Source: Spirochaetota bacterium
GTDB taxonomy: Bacteria > Spirochaetota > Spirochaetia > Treponematales > UBA12059
Assembly (NCBI GenBank): GCA_022703505.1
Contig: JAKLDN010000010.1
Coordinates: forward strand, 1 to 64,000
Direction: 5' to 3'
DNA length: 64,000 nucleotides
Positions 2,850 to 58,138 of the stretch are shown here, piece after piece. The first letter of the stretch is position 1, and every line of letters begins with the position of its first letter. Under the pieces are notes generated by a model. That model was given only the letters and a program-made list of their open reading frames with translations, did no database searches and was not told where the DNA came from. The position numbers were made by a program, and so were the translations under genes.

Positions 2850-4136
2850 ATGGATCCACGTACGATCGCCCTGCTGATGCTCATCAGCGGGGTGGAATGC
2901 AGCCTGCTGTTCTTCGCGTCGGGGATCTTTCGAAAAAGAACCGATGGAGGAGCCGGGCGGCCCTCCCTTTTCTGGGGAGCCGGCACGACGGTTCACGTCC
3001 TGGGGGTCCTGGGGCTCATGACCCAGGGGATCGTCGGTCCCTGGTTCAGCGTGGTCTTCGCCAATTCCGCGATCATCCTGGGCCAGTTGCTCATCCTGGT
3101 CGGTATACGCCGCCTGACGGCAATAAACCCGGCCCTCCCCCGATACGCGTCGGCCTGGCTGCTCTATTCCGCGGCGGCGGTCGTCTTCACGTTCGTCCTG
3201 CCTTCCACCACCGTGCGGATCATCCTGTTCTCCGCGGCCATCTCGGCGTTCTATATCGAGGCCGCGATCCTGGTCCTGATTTCCAAGTCCTGGAAACGGG
3301 AGCCCCTGACCGTCTACCTTACCGGAACCTTTCTGGCCATGGCGGGTTTTTTCGCCGCCCGAGCCCTGGTCACGGTGTTCGTCTCGCCGGCATCGATCTT
3401 TTCCCCCTCCGCCATGAACCTGGCTACCTACATCGTGTCCCACGTCGGTTTGATTGGCTGGAGCTTGGGGCTCATCCTCCTCCAGCAGCGACGGACCGAG
3501 GCGGACCTGGAGCGGGCGCTCCGGGAGAAGGAGGTGCTTTTCCGGGAACTCCAGCACCGCATCAAGAACAGCATCTCCGTGATCGCGAGCCTGGTGAGCC
3601 TGGAAGCTTCCCGAGTGGAGGATCCCGGGGCGTCGGCGGTTTTGGAGGGGCTGGAAGGACGCATCTCCGCCATAGCCTCCCTGTACGAGCACCTCTTCCA
3701 ATCCGGCCAAACCGACCACGTCGACCTCGACCTGTACCTGAAGGCCGTGGTCGAGACGCTCTTTTCCGGCCAGGCCGCGCGGGAGCGCGGAGTGCGGCTG
3801 AACCTGGAAGCTCAGGAGCTGCGCATCGACGTGCGAAGGGCGATCCCCCTGGGCATCATCGCCAACGAGCTGGCCTCGGACTGCCTCAAGCACGCCTTCC
3901 CGGAGGGTCGGTCGGGCACGGTCCGGGTATCCCTCCGCGCGGAGGGACCCTCGGCGGTCCTGGAGGTCCGGGACGACGGGAAAGGACTTCCGGAGGGATT
4001 CACCATCGGGTCCTCGGAAGGCCTCGGACTGGTCCTGGTGGATATGCTGGCCAAGCAGGTGGGCGGGTCCTTCACGGCGGCGTCCGAGGGCGGTTCGGTC
4101 TTCACGGTGAAGTTCCCGAAAGAATGGAAGAGCTGA
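2850..4136 (+). CDS. Membrane histidine kinase, HisKA_2 type
   Basis: A sensor kinase of about 428 residues. The N-terminal half (residues 1-215) is a set of about seven hydrophobic helices without a recognisable ligand domain. The catalytic half has the HisKA_2 phospho-acceptor motif ELQHRIKNS (His236), an N box around GIIANELASDCLKHAF and glycine-rich ATP-lid segments VRDDGKGLP and EGLGLVLVDML. The start at 2850 leaves seven bases after GGGG at 2839-2842; an in-frame ATG at 2844 would leave one. No response regulator gene is adjacent, so the partner is unknown. The next gene, a phosphotransferase, follows after 31 bases on the same strand. Confidence 0.88.
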   Translation: MDPRTIALLMLISGVECSLLFFASGIFRKRTDGGAGRPSLFWGAGTTVHVLGVLGLMTQGIVGPWFSVVFANSAIILGQLLILVGIRRLTAINPALPRYASAWLLYSAAAVVFTFVLPSTTVRIILFSAAISAFYIEAAILVLISKSWKREPLTVYLTGTFLAMAGFFAARALVTVFVSPASIFSPSAMNLATYIVSHVGLIGWSLGLILLQQRRTEADLERALREKEVLFRELQHRIKNSISVIASLVSLEASRVEDPGASAVLEGLEGRISAIASLYEHLFQSGQTDHVDLDLYLKAVVETLFSGQAARERGVRLNLEAQELRIDVRRAIPLGIIANELASDCLKHAFPEGRSGTVRVSLRAEGPSAVLEVRDDGKGLPEGFTIGSSEGLGLVLVDMLAKQVGGSFTAASEGGSVFTVKFPKEWKS

Positions 4137-42088: not shown

Positions 42089-45000
42089 ATGAGGTTGAAT
42101 ACAGGCCGGTTTCCCATCGGACTTCATATCTTCACGATTCTTCTATTCCTGTTCGGGGGCTGTCGGAATCCCTTCTCCCCGGGCCTGGGGGAGAAGATCG
42201 ATATCACCCCTCCGTCGATCAGTCTCACAAGCCATCTGCCGGGAGGCTTCCTTCAGGGCGAGGTATCCTTCTCCGGCCTTGCCTCGGACGACCAGAAGAT
42301 CGCGGCGGTTCGCATATCATTCAACGGGGGGACCTCCTGGAGCGACGTGACCTCCTACGACACCGCGTCCAAGGTATGGCGTCATGACCTGGATACCACG
42401 TCGTACCCCAACGGATCCTTCAGGATCCGGCTTCGCGTGCTCGACGAGGCGGGGAAGCGCACGGACACGGAGGATCTGGTCTTCACCATCGACAACCTCC
42501 CGCCCCAGATAGAGATCCAGGTGCCCGCCATCAATCCCGCGACGTACGATCCTCTCCTGCCGCCGGAAATCGCCATGAACGGGGTCGTCATCGGTATCGT
42601 GACGGACCTCCAGGGTGTCGCCGTCGGGTACCCGCAGATCAAGTTCTGGAAAACCACCGATTCCGAGCCGGACTGGGATGACGTCATCGGCCTATCCGAG
42701 GTCAAGAAAACGACCGATTTCCGGTACCGACTCTCCGACGAGCATCCCGGCGAGGTCGGGACCTTCAACATGAGGCTCCGGGCCGTGGACGTGAGCGGCG
42801 GTGAGACCGTCGTCCCGCCCCTCGCCCAGGATCCCTATACAGTGAAAGTCATCAGCGGGGACGTACCTCCCGTGATCAACCTGGCCTTCACCTCCGGGGA
42901 CATCAACGTCGTCGCCGGGGGTACCTACGCCGGGGATGATTACGCCTTCCGCGTAACCGCGAATCACCCCAACGGAATCACCTCTGTGACCCTTGAGAGA
43001 ACCCGGGAGGGTGGCCCGACCGTTCCCGTATCCTGGGCGGCCGACGATCTGGGATCCCCGACCCGCACCCTGGACAGCCCGGTCCTTGCCGTGGCGCCTG
43101 ACGGCTCCGACGACGGGACCTACGAGTTCAGGATCGAGGCGGTCAGCTCCACCGGAAGCGTCGCAAATTACTACAAGACCGTCATCGTGGACGCCACACC
43201 TCCCAGCGTGGAGATCACGAACCTTTCGCCCACGGTGGTGGACGATACCGATCCCGGCAACCCGGTGGAATACATTAACGGAGTGATCCAGATCAACGCC
43301 CTGGCGACGGACGCCAACGCCGTGCTGGGCAGCAAGTGGTGGATGCTCCCCTCCGTCGATCCCGCCCCGGCGGACTACGACAGTCCCGGGGGAACCGCGT
43401 TCGCCACCTCGACCCCGTCCCTAACCCTGGATTCCACGTCCCTGCTGGATGGCACCGAGTACAAATTCTATATAATCTCCCGGGATCGGGCCCGGAACGA
43501 CACCCGCATCAGCCGGGTCTTGACGGTCAGCCAAGGGACGGACATTCCGACGGCGGTTGTAACGGACATCGACACCTCCGTCACCACGGCGGCCGGAGCC
43601 GGCGCGGGGGGAGTGAACCTCCTGGACACCAACGCCCGAATCCGAGGCATCCTGTCGGACGACGACCGGATCGACGTTTCCTCCGTGACTCTCAGCCTGA
43701 ACGGTGCCCCCGTGGGGACCCTCGACTCCCTGGGGCTCCCGGGGCGCAGCGTCTCCTTCTCCCACAACGTGGATTCCCTGGGGCAGGGGGTCCACTCCTT
43801 CGAGCTCGAGTTCGGCGACGACGCCTCCGTCAAGAGCGGGAAGCCCTCGGCCTCGGCCTCGATCGGTCCCGTGTACTTCGTGATCGACACCTCTCCGCCC
43901 TCGATCTCCGTCGTTTCGCCCGGGGTTGGAACCTTCCAGAGGGCGTCCTTCACCCTCTCGGGAACCGCGGCGGACGCGAACGGCCTGGCCACGGTGACGC
44001 CGGGAGGATCGGACGAGTACATCGAGGTAGCCTTCCCGGAGGCTCCGGGGACTTGGGTCCAGGTGCCGGTCGATTCCGGAACCCACGCGTGGTCCGTGAC
44101 CGTAGGGGGCGGGCCGTCGACTCTCTTCGGCGGTTCCTACGAAGGTCCCCGATCAGTCTCCATCCGCGCCCGGGACCGGTTCGGGAAGCTCTCCACGGCT
44201 TCATTCTCCTTCACGGTAGACACCGTAGCCCCGACCGCGGCCGTCTCCCTGCCCGCGGCGGACGCGTGGCTCTCGGGAGCCTCGGATTCCGTCCAGGGGA
44301 CCGCCTCGGACGCGACGAGTTCCGTATCCCAGGTCCGGTACTGGGTCGGCGACGAGGGAGCCTCACCGCCGGCGGATACTGCGGACTGGACCCTAGCCTC
44401 GGGAACGACCAGCTGGAACGGCTCTCTCAACCTTTCGGCCCTGGGGGAGGGGAGGACATCGGTCCATGCCCGGTCCCGGGACGCGGCCGGCAACTGGAGC
44501 GTATCCTCGGTCCGGACCTTCGGGATCGACCAGGCCGCCCCTGCCATCACGGAAACGGCCGTAGGCGCGGCTAGCGCGGGACGGAACGCGGCCTTCTCCC
44601 TGGGCGGCAACCTTTCGGACTCCAACGCCCTCGCGAACCTGACCGTTACCCAAACCAAGGGCGCGGATCCCGCCGTGGAGCTGTACAGCGGATCCGTGAC
44701 GGGAACCTCCCAAGCCTGGTCGATCTCCGACCTTCCCCGGAACCCCGCGATCCCCGCGAACCTGCTCCTGGAGGACGGGGTCTACACCTATGCCCTCACC
44801 GTTACAGATGCCGCGGGAAAGACCGCGGTCCTCGGGCGGACGATCACCGTGGACCTCACCGGACCCGACGTGGCCATCGTCGCCCCGACGCCTGGAGCCG
44901 CCGTCCAGGGCACCGCCCTATCCGCGAACGGCACCGCCGCGGATTTCGGCGGGGTGAGCCCCATAGCAGAAACCCGGTACGCGGTGACCGTGCCTCCGGC

Positions 45001-48000
45001 CCTTCCGCCCGCGGATTACGCGGCATGGACCGCCGCTTCGGGCGCGGCGTCCTGGACAGCGGCTCTGAGCTTCCTGCCCTCCGAGGAAGGTCCCCGGGTG
45101 CTCCACGTCGTGGCCCGGGATACCGCGGGCAACTGGAGCCCCGCCCCGGCCACGGCGGCCTTCAACCTGGATCAGGCGCCGCCGGAGGTTCAAGCCTTCG
45201 GTTTCGGTGTGGGAACCGTCAACACCGTCGGTGGCACCGGGTACGCCAAGGGGGATTTCTCCTTCTCCTTCACGGCCTACGACAGCAATGCCCTGGCCAA
45301 CGTCCGGGTAACACGGAACGGGACCCAGATCTTCGACGGAAACTACTCGACTACAAGCCAGCCCGTCACCGTTAACCAAACGGTGGGCGGCCCCGGACTC
45401 GCCGACGGCATCTACGAGTACATCCTCACGGTGACGGACATCGTCGGCAAGACCGCGACCCTGACCCGCAGCGTCGTCGTGGATACCGCGGGGCCCCTGG
45501 CGGAGATCGCCAGTCTAACCCCGGTGCTGTCGATGAGCGGCACCGATTACGTGAACGGGACCATCCGCTTCACCGCCTCCGCCTCGGACGGGAACGGCCT
45601 GACCGGGGTCAAGTGGTGGCTTCTGCCGGTCGCGGCTTCGGCCCCGGCGGATTACGACGCCGCCGGTGGCACCGCCTTCGGGGCGGCTCCGTACACGGCC
45701 ACGGTGGATACGACGAGCCTGTCCGATTCGACGGCCCATGTCCTGTACGTCATCGCCCGGGACCGGGCCCTCAACGACACCCAGACGACCCGGACCGTCA
45801 CGGTGGAGCAATCCACGGATATCCCCGCGGTGAGCTTGACCCATCCCGGGGCGGGCGCCTTCGTGGGCGCCGGCTACACGGTGCGGGGGACCGTGACGGA
45901 CGACGACGGCGTGGCAGCGGCCACGGTCCAGGTGAGCTACCACGACGGAAGCTCCTGGAGCGCCTGGGGTTCCGCGACGGTTACGGGGACCGGGCGGGAG
46001 CTGTCCTTCACCTATGTCCTGCCGGTCGGAATCGGGGCGGACGGCCCCAAGCAGGTACGGGCCCGGGCCGATGACGACGCGGCCGCCAAGCTGGGGGGCG
46101 ATCCCTCGGCTTCGGGAACCTCTTCGGACGTATCCTTCACCCTCGACACCCTTCCTCCCTCGGTTTCCATCCTGGTACCCGCGGCCGCCTCGGCCCGCAG
46201 GACCACCTTCACGGTCTCCGGAGAGGTGGTGGAACGCAACCTGGATACCCTGCGCCTGAGCCTCGACGGCGGGCCGCAGGTCGACGCGCCGGTCGTAGGA
46301 GTCGGTGAGACCAAGACCTGGTCCTATGACCTGCCCGGCGCGGATTTCGACGCCCTCGCCGAAGGCCCCCACACGATCTCCGTGGAAGCGGTGGACCGGG
46401 TGGGCCGGAGCCACACGGTGCAGCGGGTGTTCTACAAGGACACCTCGGGACCGGCGATATCCTTCACCTCCATCGTGGAGGGCGGGAACACCATCGTAAC
46501 CGAGACCTCCCCGGTACTGAGGGGCGCCTTCTCGGACGAGTACTCCGACATCGCCGGAACTTTCGAGTACCGGCTCGATTCCTCCCTGGATACGGACCCC
46601 TGGACCACCCTGGCGGTCACGGGTACGGGCAAAACCGTCGCATGGGCCGTGTCCGTGGACGCCTTGTCGGACGGAAGCCATACCGTCGACGTCCGGATCC
46701 TGGACGCGGTCGGAAACCTCCGTACCAAGGAGGATGTGGCCTTCCGCCTGGACCGGGCCCTTCCCGTCATCAACATCTCGGCGCCGGTTTCCGGGGGTAT
46801 CTACGGAGCCGTCGCGGCGGGTCCCGTGTTCACCCTTTCCGGGACCGCACAGGACGCCAACCTCGTCTCGGTCCGGGCCAAGCTGGGCTCCGGGCCGGAG
46901 ACGGACATCACCGGGGTCGTCGCGGGCGGCACCAGCACCTGGAACTATCCCGTGGCCAAGGCGGATTTCGACGCCCTGCCCGACGGAGGCGGCACCGTGA
47001 CCGTGACGGCCGTGGACGCCGCGGGGCGGACGTCCCAGACGGCGTGGACCTTCACGAAGGACACGACGGAGCCGGACGCGGCCTTCAACACCCTGGACCT
47101 CGGCGGCACGACGGTCCTGCAGGACAGCCAACCCCGGGTCCTGGGAAGCTTCTCCGACGCGTACGGCGTCGCCTCCATGGAAAGCCGGGTGGAGCGCTAC
47201 GATTATGCCGGCACCCTGTGGATCCTGGTGCAGGATTGGACCTCCCTGGGAGCTCCGGGCGGCCAAACCGTCGCCGCCTGGTCCAAGGACCTGGGAACCG
47301 CGGGCCTCAACCTGGCCGACGGGCGGTACCGGATCGCGGTCCGGGCCTCCGACCGGGCGGTCCCGGACGCGAACGTCCGGACGACCGCGGCCGTTGAATT
47401 CCGGATCGACCGGAACAACCCGTCCCTGACCCTGAATCCCGGCGGACTCTTCCAGAGGACCGATTTCCCCATAAGCGGCACGGCTTCGGACCTGAACACC
47501 ATCGCCTCGGTGCGGGCCAAGGTCGGGGACGGGGACTTCTCCTCCGGGACGGTGACGTCAGCGTCCACCTCCAACGGATTCGCGACCTGGACGGTCACGG
47601 TACCGACAGGGGGTCTCACTCCGGGATCCTATACGGTGTACGTGGAGGCGGAGGACGGGGCCGGCAGGAAAAGCCAGCTGACCCGGGAGTTCAGTTTCGA
47701 CGGAACGCCCCCGGTCGTCTCCATCAGCGAGCCCCCGAACGGCAGCCGTGTAAACGGCCTGGTGACCGTGCGGGGCACGACTTCGGATGACAATGCCGTG
47801 GCCCTGGTCCAATACAGGATCGGGAACGGTGCGACCACCTGGCAGACCGCGGGATTGGGAGGGGGGCTCTATAGCTGGAGCTACACCTTCTCGAACATCA
47901 ACACCTACGCGAACACCTCGGACGTCACGGAGGTCGATCCCCTGACCGGCCTTCCCGCCTCGGGCACGAACGTCTGGGCCCTGCCTTTCCAGGTCCGGGT

Positions 48001-51000
48001 CACGGACGTGGCGGGCAATACCACGGAAGAACTATCCTACCGGCTCCTGGTGGACCCCGACATGGACGCCCCCGTGGTGACCATCATAAGTCCCATGAAC
48101 GACCAGATCGTCGGCGGCGAGGTTCGGGTTTCCGGCTACGCTTCCGACGACGACTGGGTGCGGAGCGTCGAGCTTCGGGTCGACCCCACCGGAACGGGGA
48201 CTTCCTTCGGGGCCTGGGAGCCCGCGACCATGGTGAACCAGGGCACCCAGGTGAACTGGTTCAAGAACATCAACACCTCCGGGGAGCTCAACCCCGCGGC
48301 CGGAACGATCCGGGACGTCCGGATCCAGGTCCGTGCCTACGATTCCAAGGACTACGGGGTGACCCCGGGGATCACGGGGGACACGGTCGAGCTGAACGTC
48401 AAGTTCGACAGCGGAGTGCCGGTTATCCAGAACGTCCGGGTATTCCGAAACGGTTCCGAGGTCGAGTACGCGGCGGGTGTCCGTGCGGCGGGGATCTTCT
48501 CGGTCCGGGCGAGCGTCCGGGACGAGGGAGGCATCGCCAGCATCAAGTGGCGCCGGGAAGGCCAGACGGTCTTCACGAACATCCTGGCCGATCCCGCGTA
48601 CACGACCCCTCCGACGGAACGGACCGCCGGATTTTTCGAAGTCGGGCGGAAGTACCTGATCACCTCGGCGGGCACGACGGACTTCACGGCGATCGGAGCA
48701 AGCAGCAACACCCCTGGGATCTCCTTCCTGGCTACGGGTATGGGCGCCGGGACCGGCACCGCCTACGAAGCGATCGGACCCTTGGCGGATCCCACCAACC
48801 AGTACTTCCAGTACGAGGTGGAGATCGAGATCGACTCCACGACGGTCAACGCGGGGCAGTACGCGGGCACCACGGGGTTCTTCTCCCTTGACCTGCAGGC
48901 CACGGACAACGCGACCCCCACGCCGTACCTGACCCAGGCCAGCCTGAACATCCAGATCGACAACTACTTCCCCTTCGGGGAGTACAGCTCGTCCGCGAGA
49001 GCCTCCACGGCGAATTACTACATCCAGGGCCGGGCCTGGGATTCCGGGACCGGATCGGGAAGCATCCAGGGCATCGACCGTGTGGTGGTCTACTTCTACA
49101 AGAACGGGGTATACATCGCCCCCGACGGAGGGGCTTTCAACGGTACCACCCGTACCCTCAAGGACATGACCGCGGGCGGAACCCTCCAGACGGTTGTATT
49201 CCCTGCGGACGCCGCTTCAGGGATCGTCATCGACGGCAACGAGGTGACCTCGGATCTTGACGGCAGCGGGTACATTGAAGGTTTCACCGACGACGGGATC
49301 TACAAGAATTGGTACGCCATTTACGACACCACTCAATTGGGCGACGGTCCTATGGACGTGCACTACGTAGTCGTAGACCGGGCCGGGAACTCGACCCGGT
49401 ATGTCCAAGCAGTCTACATCCGGAACAACGCGCCCCGGATCACCGGCGTCGTCATCGGCACCGATGTGGACGGAAACGGGACGGTCGGGGACATCGCCTC
49501 CGGGGAGAGTCGCCGGATCGCGGCGGCCTACGGGACGACGAACTTCACGGTCCGCAACGAACGTCTGGCCTTCGAGGCCGAGACGGCGGGCGGGAATCTT
49601 CCGAACCGCTACTCCATCGGCTACGTGACCGGCACTGCGTCCGTCGGGGCCGCGGCGCTGGTTCCCGGGAGCGTCTATACGATCGAGACCGCCGGAACCA
49701 CAAACTGGACCCTCCTGGGCGCCCCGGACAACCTGGCGGGCACGACCTTCGTGGCCGGCGGCTCGGGTGCCGGGACCGGCACCGCGACGGGCTACACGAT
49801 CGTCCAGAAGAACACCGCACCGTACACCTCGGCTACCCTGACCCTGGACGATTTCACGGGCATGCCCGACACGGCAGCGGCCAACGAGGCGCGCTTCGTG
49901 GTGAAGGTCTACGACACGACCGTTGCCGCGGGAACGGAGGCGGACCAGCTGGCCGACGCCGTGGTGATCGGCCTCAGTATCGACAATGTGGACGACCTCG
50001 CGCCCGGCATAACGGCTGCACCCTTCGGCCGCGAATACACGTCCCCGGCCAGCTTCTCCGACGCGGACAAGGCGCTGAAGGACGTGGACGCCTACACGGA
50101 AAACCTCGTCACCTCAGGCAGCGGGGTCTCCCTCGTGAAACACGGGTACGCTCAGTACGCCCTGCATTCCGGGGACGGGGACGCGGATGTCAGCGGCAAG
50201 GTCGTATTCCTCGGAAAGGCGGCGGACAACCAGAGGATCGCCCGGATCACGGTCCAGATCCCCGGATATAACGGGGGGGCCGCCTTCGACATCGCCCTCT
50301 GGGACGGATCGGCCCTGTCCGCGGCCGCGGCGGGTCGGACCTTGGCCGACGTGGCCGCGGGGACCTCGGACTGGGGCTTCGAGGCGGAGGCCGGCAGCCA
50401 AGCCGTGACCGAGACATACGGCCACGTGCTCAACTGGAAGTTCGCCTGGAACTCCGCGGCCCTCTCCACCGTGACCGCCCCGGACGTCATCGTGACCTTT
50501 ACGGCCTACGACGCGGGACCCTCGGGGGGCAACAGCTCCTCCGGGGATTTGACCGTGGACGTGGTGCCGTACATCACGAAGATCTCCAATCCGACGGGGC
50601 AGGGCGGTCTGTCGGATACGGTGATCCGCAGCTCCCGGGGCCGGTACAGCATCGAGTACCACGCTACGAACCATTTCCGCGCCAGCGGTTTCAACTTGTC
50701 CGGGGCGGTCGCCCATGTCAGCTCCGCGGCCATCGACATCCAGCCCGGGACGACGAATCTCACCGTTGCCGCGACGACGGCGACGACCGTCGATATACGG
50801 AAGAACTTCTCTCTCTCGGGCTACTTGACGGTCTTCGTGAACGGTATACCCAGCATCAACAATCTGAACGATACCGGCCAGGCCTACCACTCCGAAGCCG
50901 CCGTGGGAGATCCGCGTTCGACCTTGTGGACCGATGATCGGTATCTGACGGTTTGGAATCTGACCCAGGTTCTCCCTGCGGTCACCAACCAGACCTTCTA

Positions 51001-52198
51001 CTACCCGTCCATGGTCATGAACGGAAACCAGCCGCTTTTCAGCTACGCCAACGACAACGACGGGTATACCTATAGGACCACGGGGGTCGCGGCCTCATCC
51101 CAGCGGGGAGGCATCTGGTTCGAGCGCCACACGGCCTTGGCCCGGTCGGCGGGGGGAATCTACTGGATCCTCTCGGTCCAGGACGCCGTCGGCACCGGGG
51201 GCATCGGGTACCTCTACCTCAACCGGGACCGGAACGTGAACGCCCTCCTGGGCGACACCCAGAACAACAACCACTTCGAAATCATAGGTCTGGATTACAC
51301 GAGCCGGCAGATGAACCGGATACGGTATCCCAAGCTCATTGTCGAGGGACCGGACAACGCGACGAACATCTACATCTCGTACTACGACGCCCATCCCTCC
51401 CGCCGTGAACTTTCCTTCGTCTCCTTCCAGGCGTCCACGGCGACGGCCTCGAATCTCACTCAGCCCGCGAACGACGCGGCCCGGGCCGCCCAGGTCCAAG
51501 TCATCCCGAACACGGCGAACGCCAGCAGCGAGTACTTCGACATGGTCCGGATCGGGGCGGCGGAGGTCGCGGTGGCCTACTTCGACGAGACCGCCGGAGT
51601 CCTGAAGCTCCAGTATTCGGGAGACGCCTGGAACGCGAACAACCAGAGCGGAGCCGGGACCTGGACGGAGTTGACCGTGGACGACAGCGTCCTGACGGGA
51701 TCCCATGTGTCCATGACCGTCGGCCAGAGGAGCGGTACGACCTACCTCTACCTGGCGTACCACGACGCCGCGGAGACGGCCCTGAAATTCGCGCAGATCG
51801 ATTGGACCACGAAGGCCGTCACGAAGTCGGTGATCGACAACCGGTTCTCCGTGGGTACTCGGACCAACGTCTTCGTGATCGATGAGCTGCCCTACGTATC
51901 CTTCTATTCCGATTCGTACAGCGGCACCCGGAATTCCATCCGGCTGGCCTACCCCGTGGCCGCCAACGGCCGTACAGCGGCGGAGAACATCCTGCAGCCC
52001 GGGGCCGACGTCAACGAGGAGTACACGGGCGACTGGGAAGTAGCCGCGGTACCGGCCGTCACGGTCCCCAAAGGAGGGATCGAGCAGTTCAATCGAACCC
52101 AGTTGAACCAGTACACCAACGGAGCGTCCGTCCTGCCCGTCGTCGGCTGGCTTGCGGATCGGATCGAGTACGCCGAGCTCCAGCCGACTGCGCCGTGA
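42089..52198 (+). CDS. Giant Ig-repeat surface lipoprotein
   Basis: A 3369-residue protein, the largest here. The signal peptide ends in lipobox FGGC (Cys25). From about residue 35 to 2150 it is a chain of roughly 90-residue bacterial Ig-like domains, many with a repeated pattern such as VRGTVTDDDGV, DNLPPQIEI and DAAGNWSVSSVRTF. Two related inserts near 2185-2230 and 2524-2570 (GTTDFTAIGA, GTTNWTLLGA, then GAGTGTA) look like motifs of phage tail proteins. Residues from about 2900 contain propeller-like repeats (YISYYDAHP, YLAYHDAAET, YVSFYSDSYS). It is probably anchored in the outer membrane and adhesive. It is first in the sigma-54 operon. Confidence 0.85.
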   Translation: MRLNTGRFPIGLHIFTILLFLFGGCRNPFSPGLGEKIDITPPSISLTSHLPGGFLQGEVSFSGLASDDQKIAAVRISFNGGTSWSDVTSYDTASKVWRHDLDTTSYPNGSFRIRLRVLDEAGKRTDTEDLVFTIDNLPPQIEIQVPAINPATYDPLLPPEIAMNGVVIGIVTDLQGVAVGYPQIKFWKTTDSEPDWDDVIGLSEVKKTTDFRYRLSDEHPGEVGTFNMRLRAVDVSGGETVVPPLAQDPYTVKVISGDVPPVINLAFTSGDINVVAGGTYAGDDYAFRVTANHPNGITSVTLERTREGGPTVPVSWAADDLGSPTRTLDSPVLAVAPDGSDDGTYEFRIEAVSSTGSVANYYKTVIVDATPPSVEITNLSPTVVDDTDPGNPVEYINGVIQINALATDANAVLGSKWWMLPSVDPAPADYDSPGGTAFATSTPSLTLDSTSLLDGTEYKFYIISRDRARNDTRISRVLTVSQGTDIPTAVVTDIDTSVTTAAGAGAGGVNLLDTNARIRGILSDDDRIDVSSVTLSLNGAPVGTLDSLGLPGRSVSFSHNVDSLGQGVHSFELEFGDDASVKSGKPSASASIGPVYFVIDTSPPSISVVSPGVGTFQRASFTLSGTAADANGLATVTPGGSDEYIEVAFPEAPGTWVQVPVDSGTHAWSVTVGGGPSTLFGGSYEGPRSVSIRARDRFGKLSTASFSFTVDTVAPTAAVSLPAADAWLSGASDSVQGTASDATSSVSQVRYWVGDEGASPPADTADWTLASGTTSWNGSLNLSALGEGRTSVHARSRDAAGNWSVSSVRTFGIDQAAPAITETAVGAASAGRNAAFSLGGNLSDSNALANLTVTQTKGADPAVELYSGSVTGTSQAWSISDLPRNPAIPANLLLEDGVYTYALTVTDAAGKTAVLGRTITVDLTGPDVAIVAPTPGAAVQGTALSANGTAADFGGVSPIAETRYAVTVPPALPPADYAAWTAASGAASWTAALSFLPSEEGPRVLHVVARDTAGNWSPAPATAAFNLDQAPPEVQAFGFGVGTVNTVGGTGYAKGDFSFSFTAYDSNALANVRVTRNGTQIFDGNYSTTSQPVTVNQTVGGPGLADGIYEYILTVTDIVGKTATLTRSVVVDTAGPLAEIASLTPVLSMSGTDYVNGTIRFTASASDGNGLTGVKWWLLPVAASAPADYDAAGGTAFGAAPYTATVDTTSLSDSTAHVLYVIARDRALNDTQTTRTVTVEQSTDIPAVSLTHPGAGAFVGAGYTVRGTVTDDDGVAAATVQVSYHDGSSWSAWGSATVTGTGRELSFTYVLPVGIGADGPKQVRARADDDAAAKLGGDPSASGTSSDVSFTLDTLPPSVSILVPAAASARRTTFTVSGEVVERNLDTLRLSLDGGPQVDAPVVGVGETKTWSYDLPGADFDALAEGPHTISVEAVDRVGRSHTVQRVFYKDTSGPAISFTSIVEGGNTIVTETSPVLRGAFSDEYSDIAGTFEYRLDSSLDTDPWTTLAVTGTGKTVAWAVSVDALSDGSHTVDVRILDAVGNLRTKEDVAFRLDRALPVINISAPVSGGIYGAVAAGPVFTLSGTAQDANLVSVRAKLGSGPETDITGVVAGGTSTWNYPVAKADFDALPDGGGTVTVTAVDAAGRTSQTAWTFTKDTTEPDAAFNTLDLGGTTVLQDSQPRVLGSFSDAYGVASMESRVERYDYAGTLWILVQDWTSLGAPGGQTVAAWSKDLGTAGLNLADGRYRIAVRASDRAVPDANVRTTAAVEFRIDRNNPSLTLNPGGLFQRTDFPISGTASDLNTIASVRAKVGDGDFSSGTVTSASTSNGFATWTVTVPTGGLTPGSYTVYVEAEDGAGRKSQLTREFSFDGTPPVVSISEPPNGSRVNGLVTVRGTTSDDNAVALVQYRIGNGATTWQTAGLGGGLYSWSYTFSNINTYANTSDVTEVDPLTGLPASGTNVWALPFQVRVTDVAGNTTEELSYRLLVDPDMDAPVVTIISPMNDQIVGGEVRVSGYASDDDWVRSVELRVDPTGTGTSFGAWEPATMVNQGTQVNWFKNINTSGELNPAAGTIRDVRIQVRAYDSKDYGVTPGITGDTVELNVKFDSGVPVIQNVRVFRNGSEVEYAAGVRAAGIFSVRASVRDEGGIASIKWRREGQTVFTNILADPAYTTPPTERTAGFFEVGRKYLITSAGTTDFTAIGASSNTPGISFLATGMGAGTGTAYEAIGPLADPTNQYFQYEVEIEIDSTTVNAGQYAGTTGFFSLDLQATDNATPTPYLTQASLNIQIDNYFPFGEYSSSARASTANYYIQGRAWDSGTGSGSIQGIDRVVVYFYKNGVYIAPDGGAFNGTTRTLKDMTAGGTLQTVVFPADAASGIVIDGNEVTSDLDGSGYIEGFTDDGIYKNWYAIYDTTQLGDGPMDVHYVVVDRAGNSTRYVQAVYIRNNAPRITGVVIGTDVDGNGTVGDIASGESRRIAAAYGTTNFTVRNERLAFEAETAGGNLPNRYSIGYVTGTASVGAAALVPGSVYTIETAGTTNWTLLGAPDNLAGTTFVAGGSGAGTGTATGYTIVQKNTAPYTSATLTLDDFTGMPDTAAANEARFVVKVYDTTVAAGTEADQLADAVVIGLSIDNVDDLAPGITAAPFGREYTSPASFSDADKALKDVDAYTENLVTSGSGVSLVKHGYAQYALHSGDGDADVSGKVVFLGKAADNQRIARITVQIPGYNGGAAFDIALWDGSALSAAAAGRTLADVAAGTSDWGFEAEAGSQAVTETYGHVLNWKFAWNSAALSTVTAPDVIVTFTAYDAGPSGGNSSSGDLTVDVVPYITKISNPTGQGGLSDTVIRSSRGRYSIEYHATNHFRASGFNLSGAVAHVSSAAIDIQPGTTNLTVAATTATTVDIRKNFSLSGYLTVFVNGIPSINNLNDTGQAYHSEAAVGDPRSTLWTDDRYLTVWNLTQVLPAVTNQTFYYPSMVMNGNQPLFSYANDNDGYTYRTTGVAASSQRGGIWFERHTALARSAGGIYWILSVQDAVGTGGIGYLYLNRDRNVNALLGDTQNNNHFEIIGLDYTSRQMNRIRYPKLIVEGPDNATNIYISYYDAHPSRRELSFVSFQASTATASNLTQPANDAARAAQVQVIPNTANASSEYFDMVRIGAAEVAVAYFDETAGVLKLQYSGDAWNANNQSGAGTWTELTVDDSVLTGSHVSMTVGQRSGTTYLYLAYHDAAETALKFAQIDWTTKAVTKSVIDNRFSVGTRTNVFVIDELPYVSFYSDSYSGTRNSIRLAYPVAANGRTAAENILQPGADVNEEYTGDWEVAAVPAVTVPKGGIEQFNRTQLNQYTNGASVLPVVGWLADRIEYAELQPTAP

Positions 52199-52211
52199 CG
52201 GGAGGACGAAG

Positions 52212-53267
52212 GTGAAACCATCCGTGCGGCGCACTGACAAGCGGGCCGGAAATCACCGGCCGGGAATCCCGGGTCCCGGGCGCTTCAAGATCATCGCCGC
52301 GGCGGCCGCCCTTGCGGCGGTATTGGCCGCGGGCTACCTCCTGCTCCGGCCCCGGCCGGTCTTCCTGGTGGAGGAGGGTTTCGTTCCCGCCTGGGAGAAG
52401 CTCCTCGAGGAGGGCCCGGGTGCGCCCGGGTGGCGGATCGTGAAGTACGATCCCCGGGATGGGCTGCCCTCGACCCGAGGTCTTCGAGGATATAGAATCT
52501 CCACGGACAGGGAAGGTCGGCCGCCGGCCGGCCGGTCCGCAGCGGCCGGGTCGGCGGAGTCCGTCCCCATCCCGGTGCCGCGCCGGGACCTGTCCCGGAA
52601 CCCGGCGTTGCCGGACGGAGCCCTGCCCCTGGCGGTGGACCCGTGGATGGTCTTCCGCCGACACGCCGACCCGCCTCCGTCGCGGGCCCTCCTGGAAAAA
52701 GGCGGATCCGGCGCGGTCGTCCTTCTTCCGGGGGGGGAGCCCGAGGCCCTCTGGGCCTGGGCCGGCCAGGAACTGCAAAATGTCCCCGGATCCTTTCCTT
52801 CGGACCCCGGGCTCTGGCTGGATCGCACGGACCGAATGGCCCGGGACAGGCGCTTCCAGCCCGGGGCCCTCACCGCGCGCTGGGAGGATGTCCTTTCCCG
52901 GCTCCTGGAACCGGGCGCCTCCTGGTTGTACGCGCCCCTGAGCCGGGTGCTGACTCTGCCTGGGGACCGGACGAGCCTCCTGGAGGCCGATCCCTTCCCG
53001 CCCCGGGAAGGCTGGAACGATTTCGGCCTGCAAACCCGCATCCTCTGGGCCGTGCCCCTGGGTAGAGGGACAGCCCGGGGGTTCATGGCTTCCGCGGCCC
53101 GCTGGCTTGGGGATCCGGCCATCCAAACCCGCCTCGGGGCGATCCTGGACTGGGCTCCCGCCCATCGGGACGCCCGGGCGGCAAGTCCCCTGGCGCGGAC
53201 CTCCCAGGAGGCCTGGCTAAAAAGCACCTACGTGTGGGAGGCTCCCGAATATGCGCACATCGACTGA
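52212..53267 (+). CDS. Membrane-anchored protein of unknown function in the giant-protein operon
   Basis: A 351-residue protein with a basic N-terminus, one membrane helix (IIAAAAALAAVLAAGYLLL, about residues 28-46) and an extracytoplasmic remainder. I do not recognise a family. The order of segments (FVPAWEKLLEEG at the start, WMVFRRHADPPP in the middle, RWLGDPAIQTRLGAIL and AWLKSTYVW at the end) recalls periplasmic solute-binding proteins, but this is only an impression. The GTG at 52212 has GGAGG six bases upstream. It starts 13 bases after the giant gene and overlaps the next gene by 17 bases, so it belongs to the same operon. Confidence 0.7.
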   Translation: MKPSVRRTDKRAGNHRPGIPGPGRFKIIAAAAALAAVLAAGYLLLRPRPVFLVEEGFVPAWEKLLEEGPGAPGWRIVKYDPRDGLPSTRGLRGYRISTDREGRPPAGRSAAAGSAESVPIPVPRRDLSRNPALPDGALPLAVDPWMVFRRHADPPPSRALLEKGGSGAVVLLPGGEPEALWAWAGQELQNVPGSFPSDPGLWLDRTDRMARDRRFQPGALTARWEDVLSRLLEPGASWLYAPLSRVLTLPGDRTSLLEADPFPPREGWNDFGLQTRILWAVPLGRGTARGFMASAARWLGDPAIQTRLGAILDWAPAHRDARAASPLARTSQEAWLKSTYVWEAPEYAHID

Positions 53268-56200
53268 CTTCCGCCCGGCGCTTCCGGCTCGCTTTGCGAC
53301 GCGCTGGATGCTCGCGGCGTTGATCCTCGCTTCCTCCGTTCCCGCATGGGCGAACGGCACCCCCGAAGAGACCTGGCAGGAGGCGACGGGCACGGAGGTA
53401 TGGCTCCGGGAGTTCGACCTGTCCGGCGCCAAGCCCGGCACCCACAACGTCGTCATCCGGGCCCGGGACTCGGCGGGAAACGAGGCCCTCGTGGGACCGT
53501 ACAACATCCGGATCGACCCCTCCGTGGGCTTGCCGACGGTCCGCATCATCTACCCCGAGAAGGGCACCGTCCTGCGCAGGGACGTTCACATCGTGGGCGT
53601 GGCGGGAGGACGCATCGGAATCCAGGCCGTGGAGATCAAGCTCGACGGGGGCGAATACTCCCCCGCGAGTGGCTCCGAGTACTGGAGCGCCTCCGTGGAC
53701 GCGGCGTCCCTGCCGGACGGGCGTCATACCTTGACGGCTCGGGCCGTGGATCCCCGAGGTACCTCGGGACCGGAGACCTCGGTGTCCTTCATCCTGGACC
53801 GGGCGCCTCCCTCAGTCCGGATCCGGTCCCACGAGTCCGGAGCCCTGATCCGCGGGGCCGTCCAATTCGAAGGGACCGCGGATGACGCGAACGGCATCGC
53901 CCGGCTCTCCTTGAGCGTCGACGGCGGGAAGACGTACCAGGACCTCGGTTTCCGGGGCGCCCGGGGGGAGACGGAGGTAGGGTTCTCCTTTCCCGTCCAG
54001 AGCGGAAAGCTTCCGGACGGAGCCGCGATCTACTACCTCCGGGCGGAGGACGGAACCGGAGCCGTATCGGTCAACCCCGTCCTGTTCTTCGTGGACAACA
54101 AATCCCCGGAGTTGGAGATCCTGTGGCCGGAAAAAGGCGCGACCGTCGCGGGCACCTTCCGGATCACCGGCACGATGAAGGACGCGGTGGGGGTTCAAAG
54201 CCTCTCCTGCGAAGTCGGAAAGTCCGTGCTGGAAATCGAGATGCGTCCCGGCGACCCCTACTGGACGGCGGACATCCCGGTGCCCCCGGGCACCGGACGT
54301 TCCGTGGACCTGCGGATCGTCGCGATCGACCGGAGCGGCAACCGGACCTCGGTCTCCCGCAGTTTCGTGAACGATCTAGGGTCCTCGATACCCAGCGTGA
54401 AGATATCCCATCCCGGCGAGGCGGGACTCGCGACGTTCCCGGCGGACGGGGCGATCTTCGGGTACGTTCTGGGGGGAGCCGGTGTGGACGCCGTAAAGGT
54501 CGAGGGAGGAAAGACCTACCCCGCCCGGCCGGGCTTCCGCATCCCCTCCTCGGACATCGGGCCGGGCCGCAGCGAACTCCGCCTCCAGGCATCGGGACCC
54601 GAGGCAGCCCCGGGCGAGGTGTTGAAGGTCCGGGTCGCCCGTCCCGCCCTGCCTTCGGGAACCCTGCCGCCCTCGGCGCCGCCGCCGTCGAATATTACGG
54701 TGACCTCCCCGGCGCCGTATTCCTACCAGCGGGGGGACTTCAGCATCGCCGGTACCGCCGAGGCACCGGCCGGTTCCCGCCTGGAATATAGGACGGCTCC
54801 TACGGAGTCATGGCAGGAAATAAGCCTGGGCGGGGACGGTAGGTTCTCCTCCCGGGTCGCCCCGGCTGCGCTGCCCGAGGGACCGATGCATCTGGAACTT
54901 CGGACGGTGACCGACGGAACCGCGGCCGAGCCGGTCTACCATCCGGTCAACCGGCACACCACCGCGCCGGAGATCCGGATCCACTCCCCCCGGTCCGGGG
55001 AGAAGGTGAACGGCAGCGTGACCGTCTCCGGGGACGTCGTCACGGCCGCCCCGATCGCGGATCTTTCGTATACCCTGGACGGAAAGACCTTCCGGGCCCT
55101 CCAGGGCATCCCCGCCTCCTACGGAGCCGCCTTCTCCGTGATCGTGGACTTCACGGTCCTGCAGAAGTCCGGGGGAAGCGTCGGCGTCCGGGCGGTGGAC
55201 GCGGCGGGAAACTCCGCGGATATCGGGATACCCGTGACCGTGGACGCGTCGGGGGACCTGCCCTCGGTCCAGCTGAACCTTCCCGTGGACGGAGCCGTGG
55301 CGACCGGGGATTTCGACATATCCGGCATGGCCTTCGACGACGACGGGGTGGCGGCCGTCCATTGGCGGATCGGGGAAGGGGCCTTCTCCCGCCTGGACGT
55401 GAAGCAGAGTTTCCGGATCGGGGTTCCCCTCTCGTCCGTCCGGGACGGAGAGCGGAGAATCGAGGTCTACGCGGAGGACGTCTACGGCCGGGTCGGGCCG
55501 CCCGCGTCGGCGGTCGTCCGGATCAGCACCGGCGCGCCGACCGTCCAGGTAGTGTCCCCGAGCATCGAGGCGTACAACCGGGGCACCGTGATCCTGCGGG
55601 GGACCGCCCGGGATCCGAACGGCATTTTCGGGGTTCGGGTCTCCATGGACAACGGCGCCACCTTCCAGAACGCCGAGGGGACCGAGTCCTGGAGCCTGTC
55701 CCTCAACACCGGAGCGTACAAGGACGGGGTGTATTCCGTCCTCGTGGTGGCGGCGGATTCCTTCGGTGTGGAGTCGAGGATCTCCTCCCTCCTCAACATC
55801 GACAACACGCCGCCCCTGATTTCCCTCGGGGAGCCCGCGGACGGCCGGGTTACGGAACCCAAGCTTCGAGTTTCGGGTCAGACCAGCGACAACTCGGGTG
55901 TCGAGTCCTTGGCCTTTGAGATTTCCCCCGTGTCGGGGTCTGGAGCCCAGCGCGGCCTACGGATCGAGGCCGAGCCGCGGTTGGTGATCCTGGAAACCCT
56001 GGACGTCTCCTCCCTCCCGGGGGGGAAATACAATCTCCGGATGATCGCCTCCGACGCGGCGGGCAACACGTCCGTCCTGGTACGGGGCATCGAACTCGTA
56101 AAGGAAGCGGGGGCCCACCGGGTCGTCCTTCTGGATCCCCTTCCGGGGGTGGCGCATACCGGCCCGTTGACGGTTTCCGGCCGCGTGACCGGTCCCAGCC

Positions 56201-57324
56201 TCCCGGCCTCTGTCGGCATATTCACGGGCCAGACGCGGGCCGCGGATGCGGAGGTCGACCGGTTCGGTTATTTCCGGCACACTCTGGAGGGCATCCCCGA
56301 GGAGGGCCGCCTGGTCCTCTGGGCGGGCTTCGACACTTCCGCGGGGGAGAAGGTCCGGAGCGCGGACCATGCCGTCATCCTGGAACCCTACGGCCCCGTC
56401 CTGACGATCTTGAGCCACGGCGCCGGGGACGCGGTGACCGGCCGTCCCTGGCTGAGCGGCACGGCGGGAATCCGGCTTTCTCCCGGGGAGGCCGAAGCGG
56501 CGGGTAAAAAGGCCGCGCGCTACTACGAGGTCTCGAACGTGGCGATTAGCCTGGATAACGGCCGGTCCTTCCAGCCGGCTCAGGGGACCTCGGAATGGAA
56601 ATTCCGGCTGGAAACCGCCGAACTCCCCCGGGGGCCCCTGCCCGTGCTGGTCCGGGCCGAGTACGCGGACGGACGTGCCGTGGTCCGCAGGATCCTGCTG
56701 ACCGTGGATACCGTTCCCCCCGTGGTGACCCTCGTGGCTCCCCAGGAAGGAAGCCTCCACGCGGAATCCCTCCTGATGTTCGGCACCGCTTCGGACGATT
56801 ACGGCCTGGAGACATTGGAGGTCAACCTTCGCGCGGGGGACAAGGCCGGGTATGCGCTCCCCCAGTTCATCCAGGGATTGTACCTGGACACTCATGCCCT
56901 GGGCGCGACCTACGGGGACGTGGGCCTGGGGGTCAGCTTCTTCGACAACAACGTCAAGCTTCAGCTGCAGGCGGGCATGGCGCCCCCGGGCCGCTTCACC
57001 GGTACGGTGTTCGGGGCCAAACTCCTGGCCAACGTGCTCTACCTGCCCTTCGATTACTTCCTGGGTCCGGACTGGTCCTTCTTCTCCATGTCCCTGGCCC
57101 TGGGTGCCAACTTCTCCTACTTCACCATGGACGCCGGCAGCGATCCCCTGGTCATGTCCTCGGTCCTGGTGCAGTGGGAGTTCGCGCGGTTCCAGTTTCC
57201 CGAGTGGAAGGCTTTCCGGACCTTCTCCCTGTACGCGGAACCGAACCTCTGGTTCGCCGCCTCGGACGTGGAGGCCGGAGCCATCTTCAAGCTGGCCTTC
57301 GGATTCCGGATCGGCATCTTTTAA
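53251..57324 (+). CDS. Ig-repeat protein with C-terminal beta-barrel-like domain
   Basis: A 1357-residue exported protein. A signal peptide (WMLAALILASSVPAWA) is followed by about ten Ig-like domains of the same style as the giant lipoprotein (DRAPPSVRIRSHESGALIRG, VSGDVVTAAPIADLSYTLDG, ISGMAFDDDGVAAVHWRIG). From about residue 1205 the sequence changes to alternating aromatic strands (FIQGLYLDTHALGATYGDVG, FSMSLALGANFSYFTMDAG) and ends in ...KLAFGFRIGIF, the terminal aromatic expected of outer-membrane barrels. It is last in the sigma-54 operon and is followed by a terminator. It may present or anchor the giant lipoprotein; that is inference. Confidence 0.82.
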   Translation: MRTSTDFRPALPARFATRWMLAALILASSVPAWANGTPEETWQEATGTEVWLREFDLSGAKPGTHNVVIRARDSAGNEALVGPYNIRIDPSVGLPTVRIIYPEKGTVLRRDVHIVGVAGGRIGIQAVEIKLDGGEYSPASGSEYWSASVDAASLPDGRHTLTARAVDPRGTSGPETSVSFILDRAPPSVRIRSHESGALIRGAVQFEGTADDANGIARLSLSVDGGKTYQDLGFRGARGETEVGFSFPVQSGKLPDGAAIYYLRAEDGTGAVSVNPVLFFVDNKSPELEILWPEKGATVAGTFRITGTMKDAVGVQSLSCEVGKSVLEIEMRPGDPYWTADIPVPPGTGRSVDLRIVAIDRSGNRTSVSRSFVNDLGSSIPSVKISHPGEAGLATFPADGAIFGYVLGGAGVDAVKVEGGKTYPARPGFRIPSSDIGPGRSELRLQASGPEAAPGEVLKVRVARPALPSGTLPPSAPPPSNITVTSPAPYSYQRGDFSIAGTAEAPAGSRLEYRTAPTESWQEISLGGDGRFSSRVAPAALPEGPMHLELRTVTDGTAAEPVYHPVNRHTTAPEIRIHSPRSGEKVNGSVTVSGDVVTAAPIADLSYTLDGKTFRALQGIPASYGAAFSVIVDFTVLQKSGGSVGVRAVDAAGNSADIGIPVTVDASGDLPSVQLNLPVDGAVATGDFDISGMAFDDDGVAAVHWRIGEGAFSRLDVKQSFRIGVPLSSVRDGERRIEVYAEDVYGRVGPPASAVVRISTGAPTVQVVSPSIEAYNRGTVILRGTARDPNGIFGVRVSMDNGATFQNAEGTESWSLSLNTGAYKDGVYSVLVVAADSFGVESRISSLLNIDNTPPLISLGEPADGRVTEPKLRVSGQTSDNSGVESLAFEISPVSGSGAQRGLRIEAEPRLVILETLDVSSLPGGKYNLRMIASDAAGNTSVLVRGIELVKEAGAHRVVLLDPLPGVAHTGPLTVSGRVTGPSLPASVGIFTGQTRAADAEVDRFGYFRHTLEGIPEEGRLVLWAGFDTSAGEKVRSADHAVILEPYGPVLTILSHGAGDAVTGRPWLSGTAGIRLSPGEAEAAGKKAARYYEVSNVAISLDNGRSFQPAQGTSEWKFRLETAELPRGPLPVLVRAEYADGRAVVRRILLTVDTVPPVVTLVAPQEGSLHAESLLMFGTASDDYGLETLEVNLRAGDKAGYALPQFIQGLYLDTHALGATYGDVGLGVSFFDNNVKLQLQAGMAPPGRFTGTVFGAKLLANVLYLPFDYFLGPDWSFFSMSLALGANFSYFTMDAGSDPLVMSSVLVQWEFARFQFPEWKAFRTFSLYAEPNLWFAASDVEAGAIFKLAFGFRIGIF

Positions 57325-57427: not shown

Positions 57428-58138
57428 ATGCTCCTCACCCCGTCCTTCCTGTCGGCGGCCCGGGACTACCGCCTGCTCCTGGACCGGGGCTACCCCACGG
57501 CGGCCAGCCTCAAGCTGGTGGGGGACCGCTGGGCCCTGGACAAGGCGGCCCGGACGGTCCTCTTTAGGGGAATCCTGCCGGAATCCCTGTCCGCGGCCAT
57601 CGCGGTCCGGCTCGTCCGAGTCCTGCCTCCCGGCGCCCGGCTGGCCGTGGACGGGTACAACGTCCTCTTTACCCTGTCCAACTACCGCCGGGGTCACCCC
57701 CTCTTCCTGGGGACCGACGGCCTGGTGCGGGACGCGGGGGGAGCCCACGGGCGGATCCAGGACCAAGGCCTTTTCCTGGAATGCGCCCGGGCCGCGACGG
57801 AGAGGCTCGCGGACCTGGGGGTCGCGTACGCCGAAGTGTACCTGGACGCCCCGGTCTCCGGGAGCGGGTCCCACGCGGCGGTCCTCCGGGACCTCCTGGC
57901 CCGGGCGGGCGTGACGGGGCGGGTGGAGCTGGCCGCTTCCGCGGACGGGCCGGTCCGGGACTTCGAGGGAGGCGCCGCCGGCTATGCCGCCGGCCAAGCC
58001 GAAGGCTTTGTCGCCACCTCGGACTCCGCGGTGGCTGTCGCGGCCCGGTCCCCGGTCTTCGACCTGGCCCGGGACATCCTGGAGGCCCGGTACAGGGCGG
58101 TCTTCCCGGATCTCGGGGTGGTGGTACGAAGCTCGTGA
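57428..58138 (+). CDS. DUF434 domain protein
   Basis: A 236-residue soluble protein. The N-terminal DUF434 domain is recognisable (AARDYRLLLDRGYPTAASLK, LVGDRWALDKAARTVLFRG). The remainder (LAVDGYNVLFTLSNYRRGHP, AYAEVYLDAPVSGSG, GFVATSDSAVA) looks like a nuclease-type fold with conserved Asp residues, reminiscent of DUF5616/NYN-like proteins. Biochemical role unknown. No ribosome site precedes the ATG; a -10 box ends six bases before it. Confidence 0.8.
   Translation: MLLTPSFLSAARDYRLLLDRGYPTAASLKLVGDRWALDKAARTVLFRGILPESLSAAIAVRLVRVLPPGARLAVDGYNVLFTLSNYRRGHPLFLGTDGLVRDAGGAHGRIQDQGLFLECARAATERLADLGVAYAEVYLDAPVSGSGSHAAVLRDLLARAGVTGRVELAASADGPVRDFEGGAAGYAAGQAEGFVATSDSAVAVAARSPVFDLARDILEARYRAVFPDLGVVVRSS

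Follow-up and report, generated by a model that had tools for sequence, protein, structure and literature searches.

Complementary Ig half-domains at both ends of a probably periplasmic chain with a C-terminal eight-stranded outer-membrane barrel in Spirochaetota

The outer-membrane proteins OmpA and OprF combine an eight-stranded barrel, whose termini lie in the periplasm, with a large periplasmic part that includes a peptidoglycan-binding domain. In the inverse autotransporters of the intimin/invasin group (type Ve), an N-terminal 12-strand barrel exports the chain of Ig-like repeats that follows it; type Va autotransporters have a signal peptide, repeats in a mostly beta-helical passenger and a C-terminal 12-strand translocator of ~280 residues. 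BamA and LptD place periplasmic POTRA or beta-jellyroll domains ahead of barrels with 16 and 26 strands, respectively. Completion of a repeat from two distant chain segments, by which a ring is closed or completed, is known from the "velcro" closure of beta-propellers and from the split MG6 domain of complement C3 and alpha-2-macroglobulin. Among spirochetes, repeat proteins of the OmpL47 type are known from Leptospira.

Here we describe a gene that shares some features with each of these systems. It lies in a window of 64,000 nucleotides (the whole stretch of DNA that was analyzed) from a Spirochaetota bacterium and is an uninterrupted ORF at 53251-57324 on the + strand, which encodes 1357 aa plus stop from an ATG. 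The product begins with a Sec-type signal peptide (residues 1-34, 53251-53352), read by eye as ending in LAALILASSVPAWA with predicted cleavage after AWA and before NG. It continues with the latter half of one Ig domain (residues 40-79, 53368-53487; strands D/E to G), complete Ig-like domains (residues ~94-1155, 53530-56715), a half-Ig that corresponds to the first half (residues 1156-1197, 56716-56841; strands A to C) and an outer-membrane barrel (residues 1200-1357, 56848-57321), all on the + strand. The original prediction of an Ig-like chain fused to a C-terminal barrel was thus borne out, though it had overlooked that the Ig units at either end of the chain are only half-domains. In the chain, Pfam recognizes tandem bacterial Ig (Big) domains above its cut-offs, including Big_7 (E=1e-50; 170.7 bits vs. 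a cut-off of 24.1), Big_13, Big_3_3 and others, and the Ca_tandemer adhesin repeat is among the NCBIfam matches. An Ig model of 88 positions built from complete repeats of the family leaves residues ~373-480 and ~946-1092 unrecognized.

AlphaFold2, given the C-terminal 270 residues and 35 sequences, predicts eight antiparallel strands at a pLDDT of ~92 for the last ~158 residues (strands at residues 1207-1216, 1222-1230, 1235-1244, 1251-1266, 1278-1291, 1300-1315, 1324-1336 and 1345-1355). A Foldseek search with this model returned OprF as the top match (E=3.5e-4), followed by the eight-stranded NspA, OmpX, OmpA and PagL, and matches in a viral fold library were limited to generic outer-membrane barrels and Ig/FnIII proteins. 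The segment is therefore predicted as a barrel and not as a soluble fold. Its sequence matches nothing in Pfam, NCBIfam or the PDB sequences, and none of 27 barrels of the family matched Pfam, i.e., no likeness to a known non-barrel domain emerged from these databases. The sole PDB sequence that phmmer/hmmsearch paired with the barrel, a cytolysin at E=0.43, was dismissed as a chance match. It had been remarked that the barrel segment is short and that the protein ends in IF. The segment is indeed short at ~158 residues, but it is a complete eight-stranded barrel with nothing truncated. The ending is part of a C-terminal beta-signal, FGFRIGIF (57298-57321, + strand), with a conserved G-x-R-x-x-x-F pattern, and a terminal Phe is as expected for a BAM signal. 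We do not consider this ending a product of chance because relatives that end in the same way were found in 112 of 393 Spirochaetota genomes and Phe is the last residue in 163 of the 171 distinct full-length members that make up our family set. Searched on its own, the C-terminal domain always formed the end of a target-type gene or lay in a contig-edge fragment (29 of 29 barrel-bearing genomes). None of them had it as a gene of its own, and it occupied one place per genome (in two pieces in the fragmented G022), with a single occurrence in the source genome.

The orientation of the barrel can be read from its loops. Across the family, the connections between strands 1-2, 3-4, 5-6 and 7-8 are of variable length (SD 1.8, 6.4, 5.7 and 2.7), while turns 2-3, 4-5 and 6-7 are constant or nearly so (SD 0, 0 and 1.2). 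Such length variation is usual in surface loops but not in periplasmic turns. Both termini of a barrel with an even number of strands are on the same side, and since the variation is found on one side only, the N- and C-termini most likely face the periplasm. The Ig chain is joined ahead of strand 1 and is therefore probably periplasmic as well, facing inward. This order of a periplasmic part followed by a barrel is ordinary, as BamA and LptD illustrate. With OmpA and OprF, the protein shares the eight strands, the periplasmic termini and a large periplasmic part, but its barrel is C-terminal and without sequence match, and it has an Ig chain in place of an OmpA peptidoglycan-binding domain. 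By analogy, it may serve as an anchor of the OmpA type whose attached part points inward. The resemblance to OmpL47-type proteins is confined to weak domain-level NCBIfam matches (27.8 bits against the cut-off of 250 bits for the Lepto_OmpL47 equivalog), and these show neither a shared barrel nor split ends.

The two half-domains are a constant feature of the family. In 171 of 171 full-length members, the N-terminal unit, placed right after the signal peptide or after a spacer, covers positions 44-82 (median) of the Ig model and the unit ahead of the barrel covers positions 1-44 (median; 42-81 and 2-42, respectively, in the target). By alignment to this model, the two terminal Ig units of every member thus complement each other as halves of one domain. 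When the C-terminal half (C-half) is joined to the N-terminal half (N-half) in this order, the composite scores a median of 62 bits, compared to 30 and 25 bits for the halves alone and 28 bits in the wrong order; for the target, it aligns without gaps at 72 bits. The mean column entropy of the halves (1.72 and 1.87 bits; complete repeats, 1.74-2.42 bits) indicates that they are conserved to the same degree as complete repeats. A mis-called start that hides the first half of the N-terminal domain upstream was considered and rejected because merely 10 codons precede the ATG within its 1367-aa open frame and because relatives likewise begin with a hydrophobic signal and have the half-Ig directly after it. 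Even distant members with an added N-terminal stretch carry only the half-Ig; in one of them, L084, the sequence between signal peptide and half-Ig (3107-3800) reads as K/E-rich and coiled-coil-like. The same kind of insertion can be inferred from the offset in L171-L176, with lengths of ~100-230 residues across these and L084. We searched the open literature and found neither the family nor such a clasp (one Ig domain split over both chain ends) described, nor any experiment on a member; the arrangement thus appears to be without described precedent.

Structure prediction and covariation both speak for pairing of the halves. Folded without the N-half, the C-half of the target reaches a pLDDT of only 59-68 in AlphaFold2 with a C strand of 4 residues. 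In the naturally short member L077 (862 aa), the C-half reaches 81-88 with a C strand of 10 residues and the N-half 80-89, its strands E, F and G resembling those of an intact repeat, though this contrast is one between two different proteins. Judging from confidence and strand lengths, the halves appear to be in contact in the L077 model. Covariation along the B-E and C-F strand ladders (171 sequences, about 97 effective) was 0.60 between N-half and C-half, close to that within intact repeats (0.63) and above all 42 wrong half-pairs (0.17 +/- 0.16), with the ladders picked from peaks of complete repeats in 114 sequences where the values between the halves were visible too. The best partner of each half was the other half in 100 of 100 subsamples, and random position pairs within the same strands equaled the observed value in 0.3% of cases. 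Two earlier methods applied to the 114 sequences, based on top-scoring column pairs and on correlation with the average contact pattern, did not clearly separate intact repeats from wrong pairs; both were replaced by the strand-ladder statistics, used on these 114 and then on 171 sequences. We rate the support from covariation as moderate because the signal disappears once sequences are weighted at 50% identity and is weakened when data-driven contact lists are used. Taken with the gain in pLDDT, it supports the prediction that the halves pair with each other, and the covariation fits pairing within one molecule and between molecules alike.

Relatives of the target are present in 112 of 393 Spirochaetota genomes (108 with E<1e-40), in 43 of 59 related genomes and in 192 of 394 genomes of the order. 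The nearest is 89% identical, and the named relatives come from records of Spirochaetota and Treponema metagenome-assembled genomes. Mature lengths span 862-2396 aa, with a median of 1954. L077 (from genome G348), at the lower end, aligns end to end with longer ones, and their alignment suggests mid-chain insertion of repeats as the main source of length differences. Most genomes have a single copy, while some have two adjacent ones, e.g., the tandem full-length genes in the Treponema metagenome loci L031 (5751-14200) and L033 (6599-15091). Similar neighboring pairs were seen in G431, G511, G646 and G666, the last of which is apparently the L033 contig. Of the 108 genomes with strong matches, 106 encode the flagellar protein FliF (all but G010 and G347) vs. 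341 of 393 overall, and family f13 lacks both FliF and the target gene. We rejected this co-occurrence as proof of a flagellar role because phylogeny confounds it, many flagellated genomes are without the gene and two bearers are without FliF; such a role is only hinted at. G032, with 1.1 Mb a genome of T. pallidum size and the smallest seen in the order, has FliF but not the family.

Two likely partners are encoded just upstream on the same strand. One is a giant lipoprotein of 3369 aa (42089-52198, + strand; lipobox LLFLFGGC by eye) with Big_7/Big_13 repeats, which are the only other strong relatives of the target's Ig repeats in this genome. Ig-rich counterparts are found beside or near the target gene in L028, L035, L043, L081, L082 and L088 (upstream) and in L077 and L085 (downstream), and the C-terminal 520 residues of the lipoprotein were detected in 16 of the 59 related genomes, each of which has the target as well. 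A joint function of both proteins is plausible. The last ~500 residues of the lipoprotein contain propeller-type-looking repeats (IYISYYD, VAYFDE, LYLAYHD, YVSFYSD) without Pfam match. Elsewhere, it has two copies (48608-48818 and 49631-49841, + strand) of an insert motif, Y-x-I-x-x-AGTT-x-(F/W)-T-x-(I/L)-GA ... GAGTGTA, which we take to resemble an insert of phage tail-fiber-type proteins; a pattern scan of the close relatives L027 and L029 found the second copy only. The other likely partner (52152-53267, + strand) is 371 aa long and has an N-terminal membrane segment. Its gene overlaps the target by 17 bases, and homologs immediately precede the target in L027, L028, L029, L031, L032, L033 and L081. 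Downstream follows a DUF434/DUF5616 gene (57428-58138, + strand) that, among the loci examined, adjoins the target in close relatives only.

That the protein is exported, inserts an eight-stranded barrel into the outer membrane and has complementary half-domains at both ends is either evident from the sequence or strongly predicted. On balance, we favor as the probable arrangement that this C-terminal barrel carries a periplasmic Ig chain that the split domain makes into a loop. After cleavage of the signal peptide, the two half-domains would meet, and B-E and C-F strand contacts would join them as one whole Ig domain at the barrel mouth. A chain with some 7 to more than 20 domains would thereby become a closed loop that lies beneath the outer membrane. 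We hold it to be reasonably probable that this clasp closes the bead string at the barrel's periplasmic face while the middle repeats set a loop size that varies several-fold among species and clasp and barrel stay fixed, which would make an adjustable ring or spacer anchored in the outer membrane. The loop would then most likely serve as a structural spacer or tether from the outer membrane to the peptidoglycan, the flagella or the co-encoded giant Ig lipoprotein. Both the pairing within one molecule and the spacing or tethering role are what we infer from these data. In principle, though not by homology, the clasp would resemble the velcro closure and MG6. These complete propeller blades or an insert-interrupted domain, whereas here the first and last repeats of an Ig chain are halved. 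MG-ring proteins among the Foldseek matches of the full model reflect Ig-like beads in general.

The main rival to the loop is pairing between neighboring molecules, in which each copy would lend its N-half to complete the C-half of its neighbor, giving outer-membrane-anchored dimers or chains, comparable to donor-strand complementation. The split domain, the folding results and the covariation fit such homotypic exchange nearly as well. However, the domain appears to be completed within one chain by AlphaFold2, a flexible chain could bring both ends to the base of the same barrel and no observation requires a domain swap, and we regard this alternative as rather unlikely. It would be more surprising still if the halves did not pair with each other at all and each either completed a partner, e.g., the giant Ig lipoprotein that is co-encoded in several lineages, or was a mere remnant. 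Remnants would not be expected to be conserved like intact repeats, the two halves complement each other as one domain and the C-terminal part of the lipoprotein was undetected in most target-bearing genomes. We therefore consider this very improbable.

A different fate of the chain would follow if the barrel exported it, making the protein a surface adhesin akin to an autotransporter or a reversed intimin. The signal peptide, the adhesin-typical Ig repeats (Ca_tandemer) and the C-terminal barrel fit this idea, and the original prediction had likened the domain order to that of autotransporters. This likeness does not hold up: with both termini on the periplasmic side, the eight-stranded barrel is too narrow and has no pore for a passenger. 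Pfam models of autotransporters and inverse autotransporters found no match, the type Va translocator has 12 strands and a mostly beta-helical passenger instead of Ig domains, and in type Ve proteins the barrel is N-terminal and its chain exported. The topology thus argues against a surface location of the Ig chain, and we see little chance that the protein is such an adhesin.

The natural annotation of these proteins as adhesins or autotransporters is corrected by these results, with a chain that probably faces inward. The proteins form an unnamed, widely conserved and usually single-copy family in a phylum about whose outer-membrane proteins little is known. Should the clasp be real, it would be a new principle of ring closure for Ig chains, and how spirochetes space their outer membrane, cell wall and internal flagella would become a testable question.
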